A stretch of DNA of 64,000 nucleotides from Opitutaceae bacterium TAV5 (GTDB lineage: Bacteria > Verrucomicrobiota > Verrucomicrobiia > Opitutales > Opitutaceae): the NCBI GenBank assembly GCA_000242935.3, contig CP007053.1, positions 2,341,001 through 2,405,000 on the forward strand, read 5' to 3'. The notes under the pieces were generated by a model that saw nothing but the letters and a program-made list of their open reading frames with translations, was not told where the DNA came from and ran no database searches. Position 1 is the stretch's first letter. Each line of letters starts with the position of its first letter. The position numbers and the translations under genes are program-made. Below are positions 32,460 through 46,471 of the stretch, one piece after another.

Positions 32460-33515
32460 TCACGCCTGCTGTCGCACGCTTTCGCCCGGGTGCCAGACGC
32501 TCTCCACCAGCGTGCGGATCGGCACGGGCGGGATGCCGCGTTCGTTGCGCTGGAGCATGCCGGCGAGGAAATCGGCCGCCGTCGCGCCGATGAGCCAGTC
32601 GTTCTGGTGCACGCCCGCCCACCAAGGATCGGCCGGGTCGGCATTGAGGTTGGCCAGCCCCACATCCTCCGGAATCCGCAGGCCCAAGCCGAGTATCCAC
32701 TTTTTCACCAGGCGGTCGATGGCGATGACGGCATCGGGCCGGTGCTTGCCGAACCAGCGGACAAATTCCCCGTGATCGCTCTCCCGGGTGATCAGCGGCG
32801 GCACGCGCTGGCGGGCGGGCATCCGGTGGAGGGCGAGCAGGAACACGCTCAGGAAGTTGTTGTTCACCTTCTCGTCCCAATCCTCCTTGAGGCACAGGCC
32901 GATGCGCCGGTAGCCGAGCGCCTGGAGTTCGCTCACCAGAAGCTGCGTCGCCTGGTACTGGTGATTGGTGACCACGTGAAACCGCGCCGGCTGCAGGCTG
33001 TAGCCGAGCGCCAGCACGGAGAAATCCGAGAGATCGAGGTCGAGCGTGGTGCGGGCATGCGGCTGCGGCGCGATGACCAGGCCGGTGACGCCGCGCGCCC
33101 GGAGGATCGAGCGGGCGGAGGCCGGCGTCATGCCCGGCTCGTGGAGCCAGAAATCGTCGAGCTGGTAACCGAGCTGCCGCGCCCGTTCGGAGGCGCCCAG
33201 AAAGTAGCGATCGAAGGCCGAGACCGTGCGGCGCATCTCGTCGCGTACCGGCCAGTTGTTGATCCACGCGATCGTGGACTGGTAACGGGTGGACTGGCGC
33301 CCCTTGCGGTAAACGTTGAGCGCGGAGAGGACCGGGTCGGGCGAATAGCCGAGTTCCTCGGCCACGGCCCGGATGCGGGCAGCGAGTTCGGGTCTCAGCC
33401 GCGGGCTGTTGCGCAGGGCCAGGCTGACCGTCGAGTAATGCACCCCGACGCGGGCGGCGATGTCGCGGGTCGTGACCCGGGCCCGGGTGATGCCGGGAGC
33501 CATGGGAGGAGTCAT
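32460..33515 (-). CDS. LacI-family transcriptional regulator (paralogue 3)
   Basis: About 351 residues. Helix-turn-helix RVTTRDIAARVGVHYSTVSLAL, hinge LGYSPDPVLSALNVYRKG, and the signature LDDFWLHEPGMTPASARSILRARG. I choose ATG 33515; ATG 33503 is also possible, and neither has a clear ribosome site. Convergent with the Gfo/Idh/MocA gene (33 bases between stops). Very close in architecture to paralogue 2, which suggests local duplication. Confidence 0.9.
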   Translation of the reverse strand: MTPPMAPGITRARVTTRDIAARVGVHYSTVSLALRNSPRLRPELAARIRAVAEELGYSPDPVLSALNVYRKGRQSTRYQSTIAWINNWPVRDEMRRTVSAFDRYFLGASERARQLGYQLDDFWLHEPGMTPASARSILRARGVTGLVIAPQPHARTTLDLDLSDFSVLALGYSLQPARFHVVTNHQYQATQLLVSELQALGYRRIGLCLKEDWDEKVNNNFLSVFLLALHRMPARQRVPPLITRESDHGEFVRWFGKHRPDAVIAIDRLVKKWILGLGLRIPEDVGLANLNADPADPWWAGVHQNDWLIGATAADFLAGMLQRNERGIPPVPIRTLVESVWHPGESVRQQA

Positions 33516-33699
33516 GGGGAAAAAGACAATCCGCAGGCCTTCGCGGCTCAACCGCCAAAAACAGGATGCCGCCGAAGTGACTGGCGAAAACGCTGTCCAA
33601 CCCCGCCTGTTGTCTCCAGAAAGGGCGAATCGCCGCCATCGCCTCCGGCCCCCTCCCCTTTCGCCCTTCCCGCGCCTTCCCGTTCACCTTTCCGAATCC

Positions 33700-33990
33700 A
33701 TGAAAAACTCCCGCCTCCTTTTCTTCACCGGCATCATCGCGGGAGCCCTGCTCACCCTCGCCCCGGCCTTCGGGATGCTGGGCACGGTGCTCGGCATGAT
33801 CCGCACGTTTGACGAACTCGGCGCGCCCGGCGCCACGGATCCCGCCGCGCTTGCCAACGGCATCAGCATGAGCCTCTATCCGGCCGCCGTCGGCCTCGCA
33901 CTTTTCCCCGTGGGGGTGGTCGTGCTGGTGATTTCCCTCGTCTGCTACTTCCGCGCCGCCCGATCTGCCGGACCCGCTCCCGCCGCCTGA
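33700..33990 (+). CDS. Miniature MotA/TolQ/ExbB-like membrane protein
   Basis: Only 96 residues, with two transmembrane helices. The core of the proton-channel family is visible: GMLGTVLGMIRTFDELG (25-41), DPAALANGISMSL (47-59) and AAVGLALFPVGVVVLVISL (62-80). ExbB, TolQ and MotA proteins usually have over 200 residues, with another helix and a large cytoplasmic loop; those parts are missing here. The gene is not visibly broken: it has a clean ATG and stop and starts right at the first helix. No TonB/TolR/ExbD gene is nearby. It is followed after 33 bases by a four-helix membrane protein in the same direction. Function unknown; it may be a minimal channel core or an accessory subunit. Confidence 0.7.
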   Translation: MKNSRLLFFTGIIAGALLTLAPAFGMLGTVLGMIRTFDELGAPGATDPAALANGISMSLYPAAVGLALFPVGVVVLVISLVCYFRAARSAGPAPAA

Positions 33991-34023: not shown

Positions 34024-34473
34024 ATGGACACGACCACCGGAATCCCGTCCCCGCCGCCCGATCCCGTCACGCAACAGGATATCAGCCACCTGCAACTGCT
34101 GAGCGTGTTTCACTACGTCGTCGGCGCGATCGGTTTCCTGTGCGCATGCCTCCCGCTGATTCACGTGGGGCTGGGCGTCATGATGATCGTGGCCCCGGGC
34201 ACGTTTTCGGACGGAGGACAACACGCGCCGCCGCCTGCCTTTCTCGGCTATCTCTTTGCCGGCATGGGCGCGCTCTTCGTGCTGGCTGGCTGGGCAGTCG
34301 CCATCTGCACGATCATTTCCGGATGGCTGATCGCCCGGCGGAAAAAACGCCTGTTCAGCTTCGTGCTGGCTTGCGTACTCTGTCTTTTCACGCCGTTCGG
34401 CACCGTTCTCGGCGTTTTTACGATCATTGTGCTCAACCGGCCCTCCGTGCAGCGACTTTACCAACGGTCCTGA
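34024..34473 (+). CDS. Conserved small four-helix membrane protein
   Basis: A 149-residue protein with a short polar N-terminus and four predicted helices (LLSVFHYVVGAIGFLCACLP; GVMMIVA; FAGMGALFVLAGWAVAICTI; FSFVLACVLCLFTPFGTVLGV). A similar layout with LLSVFHYVxG near the start is common in hypothetical proteins of this phylum, but I know no function. It follows the mini-ExbB gene by 33 bases and may form a unit with it. Confidence 0.72.
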   Translation: MDTTTGIPSPPPDPVTQQDISHLQLLSVFHYVVGAIGFLCACLPLIHVGLGVMMIVAPGTFSDGGQHAPPPAFLGYLFAGMGALFVLAGWAVAICTIISGWLIARRKKRLFSFVLACVLCLFTPFGTVLGVFTIIVLNRPSVQRLYQRS

Positions 34474-34532: not shown

Positions 34533-34607
34533 TTGCGCAAAGATCGCCAAGGACGCGAAGGAAATAACCGGCAACCCTTTGCGCGCTTTGCGGCCTTTGT
34601 GCAAAAA
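34533..34607. repeat. Intergenic palindrome, family 2 (CAAAG-type)
   Basis: Left arm 34533-34561 (CTTGCGCAAAGATCGCCAAG...) and right arm 34576-34607 are imperfect reverse complements. The same kind of element, with shared outer bases AAAAATCCGGAAGC.../GCCTTCGGATTTTT, occurs at 46381-46471. It stands between the small membrane protein and the MFS gene. It looks like a dispersed palindrome and does not encode a protein. Confidence 0.7.
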
Positions 34608-46395: not shown

Positions 46396-46471
46396 TTTTA
46401 CACAAAGATCGCAAAGGACGCAAGGAATTGGTGTTCCGACACTTCGCGTTCTTTGCGATCTTTGTGTAAAA
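46396..46471. repeat. Intergenic palindrome, family 2 (CAAAG-type)
   Basis: Arms 46396-46425 (TTTTACACAAAGATCGCAAA...) and 46442-46471 (...TTTGCGATCTTTGTGTAAAA) are reverse complements with only two or three mismatches, around a 16-base loop. The outer bases GCCTTCGGATTTTT are shared with the element at 34533-34620. It may also serve as a terminator for the preceding subtilase gene. Confidence 0.78.

Follow-up and report, generated by a model that had tools for sequence, protein, structure and literature searches.

A 96-residue member of a scattered miniature MotA/TolQ/ExbB-like protein family in Opitutaceae bacterium TAV5

MotA/TolQ/ExbB proteins are studied as parts of rotary motors that include an ExbD-type partner. 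The stretch of Opitutaceae bacterium TAV5 analysed here (64,000 nucleotides of contig CP007053.1, the whole of which we call the window) carries a gene for a protein of this family that is only 96 residues long. An earlier note, made from the letters alone, suggested that this mini may be a real minimal form instead of debris. We examined that suggestion and the possible role of the protein using homology searches, gene context, and predicted structures. The features of the locus are as follows.

32460..33551, minus strand: divergent LacI-family regulator upstream, given as context and lying outside the mini
33700..33990, plus strand: 96-aa miniature MotA/TolQ/ExbB-like protein with two membrane helices (Pfam, coding log-likelihood, same-build homologues, AlphaFold2)
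33706..33819, plus strand: first helix, residues 3-40, broken near Pro22, corresponding to ExbB alpha-6 with Pro141 (DSSP of the model, profile alignment)
33784..33786, plus strand: Thr29, equivalent to ExbB Thr148 and PomA Thr158 (profile alignment)
33841..33966, plus strand: second, long helix, residues 48-89, corresponding to the membrane part of ExbB alpha-7 (DSSP of the model)
33880..33885, plus strand: Pro61-Ala62, with Ala62 at the site of ExbB Thr181 and PomA Thr186
34024..34473, plus strand: 149-aa neighbour (P0002), a membrane-protein family of its own (order-wide search, hhalign, AlphaFold2)

The open reading frame at 33700-33990 starts with ATG, stops with TGA, and encodes 96 aa. 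The same frame is open upstream to an ATG at 33460, which would give 176 aa if used. In a codon-usage model trained on 33 long ORFs from the window, 33700-33987 scored +64.3 bits, whereas the extension at 33460-33699 scored -5.2 bits, and a start at about 33700 also agrees with the aligned relatives. The score of the mini, 0.67 bits per codon, is inside the 0.20 to 0.74 range of the training ORFs. The neighbour scored +59.2 bits over 34024-34470, and both genes look coding. The gene had been called intact and placed 33 bases ahead of a membrane-protein gene; the full frame and the coding codon usage from the proposed start bear out the first point, and the stop-to-start spacing to the 149-aa gene is indeed 33 bases.

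The mini matches the Pfam family MotA_ExbB (PF01618) with 49 bits against a curated cut-off of 22.9, its residues 16-68 covering positions 51-103 of the 127 in the profile. It is the weakest of the 16 MotA_ExbB matches in the genome; because all 16 exceed the curated cut-off, the match is not due to chance. An alignment of 16 minis (A3), which includes the window protein, was used for the profile and for AlphaFold2. All 16 members match PF01618 at an E value of 0.01 or less, and the profile aligns without gaps to residues 136-194 of E. coli ExbB (E value, 1.2e-8), equating Pro22 with Pro141, Thr29 with Thr148, Met57 with Glu176, and Ala62 with Thr181. The gap-free alignment identifies the mini as the pore-lining helix pair, alpha-6 and alpha-7, of ExbB. 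It shares with ExbB, TolQ, and PomA/MotA the pore hairpin with the GxxGTVxGM..F motif and the kinking proline, and differs from them in having no first helix, cytoplasmic domain, or adjoining ExbD, no Glu at the Glu176 site, and Ala at the Thr181 site. The helix pair and signature loops that had been recognized in the letters are thus supported by the Pfam match over the pore-hairpin part and by the ExbB alignment. The reported absence of the remaining helix and the cytoplasmic domain holds as well, as 96 aa leave no room for the ExbB parts that precede the hairpin; of the three or four membrane helices and the cytoplasmic domain that characterize PF01618, the model contains only helices 3-19, 21-40, and 48-89.

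The AlphaFold2 model of the mini (16 rows, A3) has a mean pLDDT of 89 and consists of a broken helix, a loop, and a long second helix. The top 23 rows of a Foldseek search with this model were all TolQ, ExbB, or MotA chains with probabilities of 0.95 to 1.00, at weak E values (0.11 to 0.44) and with an rmsd ranging from 1.6 A over 67 columns up to 15 A; none of the 296 rows reached an E value of 0.001. In VIA-align, unrelated long-helix proteins outranked ExbB (Z score, 8.0; rank 20), so the Z score alone does not identify the mini. In ExbB, both ends of the corresponding helices face the cytoplasm. Read directly from the sequence, the termini of the mini are basic and its loop is acidic, suggesting that both of its ends are cytoplasmic too. 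A long cytoplasmic tail is a feature of ZorA from the Zorya defence system; the mini has no tail in its 96 aa, and its best match to a ZorA model was 10 bits (E value, 0.05).

Proteins of the same build are scattered through the host phylum, Verrucomicrobiota. Two-helix proteins of 93 to 129 aa were found in at least 11 other genomes of that phylum (L189 to L196, L201, L202, and L221) in searches of 372 genomes of the order, 387 of the phylum, and 252 of the family; these counts are lower bounds, and several of the start codons are our choice. Together with the window, these at least 12 genomes span nine families as labelled by the tool. A thirteenth genome (so at least 13 including the window), the sole one seen from another phylum, belongs to the phylum of a planctomycete and encodes a 95-aa two-helix mini (L287:193-480, minus strand) with a Pfam score of 40.7 bits over 94 of its residues; the two genes upstream of it are presumably a PadR-type regulator and its partner. 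In the 199 genomes of that phylum (that of L101), three short frames were among the matches listed: L287, L288, which is of the longer type, and L289, which is cut by a contig end. At an E value of 1e-14 or less, all frames among the matches listed had at least 169 aa in the 180 genomes of the Methylobacter phylum (that of L132) and at least 222 aa in the 148 genomes of the Phocaeicola phylum (that of L090), searches that are blind to minis weaker than the cut-offs used. A core filter over 80 contig loci passed just one frame among the matches listed, the broken-looking L123. Residues G25, T29, M33, and F37 are present in all 16 A3 minis. We define the two-helix group as proteins of 93 to 129 aa with the hairpin only, a PF01618 core, and no ExbD directly beside, and the window mini falls within it. 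No description of a two-helix or miniature MotA/TolQ/ExbB form was found in the titles and opening lines of abstracts surveyed, which leaves its absence from print unproved.

A second, longer form carries the same hairpin. In an initial search of 57 genomes, two four-helix relatives in one genome scored above the full-length proteins, and eight four-helix minis of 131 to 145 aa were collected (L010, L039, L051, L206, L207, L208, L210, and L212); two weak matches to the tail only (L203 and L204) were excluded from this set, and L062, which contains a run of N, was excluded from alignment A4. Their first half is the hairpin of the window mini, to which the four-helix form adds a tail of two further helices. 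A P-x-G-T motif is present in the tail of all but one of the eight (L210), and in L212 AT replaces GT in the hairpin signature. Profiles of the two forms match each other with an hhalign E value of 9.8e-20 (reversed control, 4.8e-5). Seven further proteins (L205, L209, L211, L214, L216, L217, and L218) keep the four-helix layout and have lost the channel signature. In two others, a degenerate four-helix module follows a protein kinase domain (Pfam Pkinase, 1.4e-45 and 4.5e-45), and the second also has TPR repeats.

L213:4043-5617: kinase-fused degenerate module
L215:4086-6119: kinase-fused degenerate module

The kinase fusions and the lost signature in several four-helix relatives indicate that the module is also used without the channel signature.

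In a tree built from 88 rows over 79 columns, all 12 two-helix and 9 of 10 four-helix minis grouped in a single branch (98/100) that excluded every full-length row, among them six of the 15 other matches from the window genome. The tenth four-helix mini, L211, fell outside the branch as a wrongly cut row, and L287 is absent from the A3 alignment, the trees, and the fold. The branch is strongly diverged, at 1.91 changes per column. When the hairpin ends were omitted (49 columns, 86 rows, without L209 and L211), none of 200 bootstrap trees united the minis in one clade; the bootstrap had not settled for either tree, and the starred branches of the shorter one are compatible with one origin of the minis. 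An old common origin is likely, and independent shortening is possible. Recent truncation of a full-length gene was considered and judged unlikely, because the window protein groups with the minis, away from the rows of its own genome, and because homologues of the same build exist; the 49-column tree leaves the point unresolved. A mobile or viral gene was also considered and rejected. Five plasmid records matched: the two annotated ones are full-length systems with ExbD, and a third, without annotation, has frames of 458 and 189 aa. In two viral-contig loci, the sole frames that match the core have 169 and 186 aa. One phage record matched in the protein searches.

Among the relatives, the close two-helix pair L193/L202 (86 of 116 positions identical) has a dN/dS of 0.24 (NG86) or 0.32 (YN00) and is under purifying selection. 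Purifying selection is likewise visible in three four-helix pairs (dN/dS, 0.12 to 0.17 by NG86), at high dS; one further pair was saturated. The distant two-helix pair L190/L191 has a dN/dS of 0.42. The suggestion that the mini may be a real minimal form is strengthened by the same-build proteins in at least 12 other genomes and by the purifying selection in the one close pair, and homologues are not all full length, as some share its length. We conclude that the window gene is a genuine member of a scattered miniature MotA/TolQ/ExbB family.

We then considered its potential partners. The window genome contains 18 ExbD matches, and 13 of the 16 MotA_ExbB matches have an ExbD within 0.4 kb; the exceptions are the mini and two others. 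A longer ExbB-like gene accompanies every one of these ExbD genes within 1 kb, so that none of the 18 is free to pair with the mini. The nearest ExbD is 100,516 bases away, which extends to the whole genome the observation that no ExbD lies near the mini, and an ExbD partner of the kind that accompanies PF01618 members is therefore not encoded alongside it. Around the relatives, with fetched flanks that reached about 5 kb at the most and in many cases less, an ExbD query matched in 5 of 33 loci. Four of these (L197 to L200) are sets of a larger ExbB, a short ExbB, and ExbD. Their short ExbB resembles the mini as a short MotA_ExbB protein (frames of 134 to 139 aa) but sits among the larger ExbB and ExbD, and 56 to 61 residues precede its core, leaving space for a further helix that the minis do not have. 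At the fifth locus (L189), 4.3 kb separate the mini from the ExbD, which adjoins the end of an ExbB-like frame. The query gave no match at L221, L227, or L287, and across the 33 loci it found no mini adjacent to an ExbB/ExbD set.

The genes beside two-helix minis vary by locus and suggest no function. They include thymidylate synthase and dihydrofolate reductase genes at L189 (L189:4481-6134), amidotransferase and chorismate-binding enzyme genes at L190 (L190:4963-7315), and genes for a FliI-type ATPase and FliJ at L221. The placement beside folate- or chorismate-pathway genes at L189 and L190 was taken as coincidence. At L190 and L193, the start of the mini overlaps the upstream stop by 4 bases in an operon-like manner.

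Motor channels of this family use two threonines together with an Asp of the partner. According to PMC6677748, motility is lost when PomA carries T158A, T185A, or T186A, the Na+ binding signal disappears with T158A and with T186A, and ExbB T148 and T181 match the positions of PomA T158 and T186; PMC12215075 calls both channel threonines conserved. The equivalent of the first, Thr29, is Thr in 16 of 16 A3 minis and in 152 of 152 longer-homologue rows. At the second site, occupied by Ala62 in the window protein, Thr is found in 15 of 16 A3 minis (15 of 17 with L287 added) and in 150 of the longer-homologue rows; the 152 rows were picked by a model built from the minis, which biases their conservation upwards. 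Measured against PF01618, the mini thus keeps one channel threonine and not the other. L287 also lacks the second threonine, in an intact frame. The ExbB Glu176 site carries Glu in none of the 16 minis, compared with 80 of the 152 longer homologues. A pairwise phmmer alignment with PomA places the second-threonine stretch differently and with a gap, whereas the profile alignment is gap free. Given the missing second threonine and the lack of a nearby ExbD, the window copy is unlikely to be a force-generating proton channel. The assignment to the proton-channel family stands as ancestry (PF01618), but proton-channel function of the window copy appears doubtful given Ala62 and the lack of an unpaired ExbD. 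Most sister minis keep the second threonine, and some of them could conduct.

With no ExbD beside the mini, all ExbDs paired, and a channel threonine missing, the mini is probably an ExbD-independent, non-motor hairpin. The reading we prefer, to which we give about an even chance, is that the protein is the pore-hairpin module alone, with a non-motor role in the inner membrane. It would insert with its two ends on the cytoplasmic side, forming a hairpin whose conserved Gly/Thr/Met/Phe face would pack into a small ring or bundle, as in ExbB. It would operate without the ExbD rotor and hence generate no force. Such a small inner-membrane module might hold or scaffold a lipid or a further membrane helix, or it might be a regulatory domain, the latter option being prompted by the four-helix cousins fused to kinases. 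The retention of the family, its scatter, and its fusions with kinases suggest that this membrane module is employed for its packing. More tentatively, and in our estimate somewhat against the odds, the host phylum, with at least one outlier in another phylum, may have turned a motor pore hairpin into a rotor-free module that is used alone, with a second hairpin, or on Ser/Thr kinases. A conserved form with the pore hairpin alone and no adjoining rotor gene suggests that this fold has been put to other uses, for example in signalling kinases.

Alternatively, hairpins could assemble into a homo-oligomer that lets protons or small ions leak through, or pass in a controlled way, without ExbD. The pore helix pair and the first channel threonine are kept in all 16 A3 minis and the predicted hairpin resembles ExbB/TolQ, but the window copy lacks the second threonine, the ion-carrying Asp of ExbD is missing, and some four-helix cousins have lost the signature, so we regard such a miniature channel as unlikely. 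The mini is a natural minimal construct for asking whether the hairpin alone can assemble, conduct, or hold another helix.

The mini might instead join the full-length ExbB/TolQ/MotA rings of its host and modulate or poison them as a dominant-negative subunit. Potential targets exist in the 15 other MotA_ExbB matches of the genome, 13 of them with the close ExbD described above, and the available text of PMC12215075 has the same helices forming the ring contacts of TolQ. However, the minis have diverged strongly, with 1.91 changes per column on their branch, no mini was found adjoining an ExbB/ExbD set in the loci queried, and the cytoplasmic contacts are missing; we consider this role quite improbable.

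The window copy could also be a decaying, functionless remnant of the family. It is one of only two minis of 17 without the second threonine, the same-genus genome G001 has no match to it at an E value of 1e-8 or less, and a promoter search found no sigma-70-like site for it; the latter two observations indicate that the copy might be marginal. On the other side, the frame is intact with strong codon bias (+64.3 bits, 0.67 per codon), and L287, whose frame is intact as well, lacks the same threonine, which makes decay slightly less likely. We judge it improbable overall.

The remaining alternative involves the 149-aa neighbour, which might act jointly with the mini as a two-gene unit replacing a four-helix mini. 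The four-helix form is a hairpin plus a tail, and the rear half of the neighbour is related to that tail (hhalign E value, 1.8e-10; probability 97; reversed controls, 0.071 and 0.077), so that at the window locus relatives of both halves are adjoining genes, 33 bp apart. Against the two-helix profile, the neighbour gave background values (4.8e-4 and 1.7e-3; reversed controls, 0.003 and 0.031). It has no Pfam match at an E value of 0.01, and its AlphaFold2 model (pLDDT, 92.6) is a multi-helix fold of its own for which no PDB entry stands out, the first ExbB appearing at Foldseek rank 24 with a probability of 0.12. Its relatives occur in 42 of 372 genomes of the order, its own included. Among the 41 other genomes with a match, 19 loci were fetched, and none had a mini beside the neighbour relative within up to 1.5 kb. 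The neighbour family is present in 8 of the 11 other mini genomes of the host phylum, where in every case it lies on a different contig or over 1 Mb from the mini; at G547 the contig breaks off 238 bp beyond the mini, leaving pairing undecided there. Pairing was not seen at L287 either. The adjacency was thus seen only in the window genome, and the suggested partnership gained no support: neither the 19 neighbour loci nor the 11 other mini genomes showed a pairing. With pairing seen in one genome only and a predicted fold of its own for the neighbour, we judge the two-gene unit improbable.

Three minor observations concern the surroundings of these genes. At two loci (L229:5809-7199 and L230:5346-6710), a relative of the neighbour lies directly ahead of two ExbD-like genes, with a run of N between the relative and ExbD at L229; no ExbB-like gene was found by motif in the 13 kb fetched, and the large gene preceding the relative is one that we take to be ftsK. 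The closely related two-helix minis L193 and L202 come from two families and occupy dissimilar surroundings; both loci contain series of small ORFs, which may represent a gene-cassette array. In the window itself, a 26-nt repeat occurs at 34536-34561 and 46441-46466, with 0 and 3 mismatches to the pattern and none expected by chance, and is probably an interspersed repeat.
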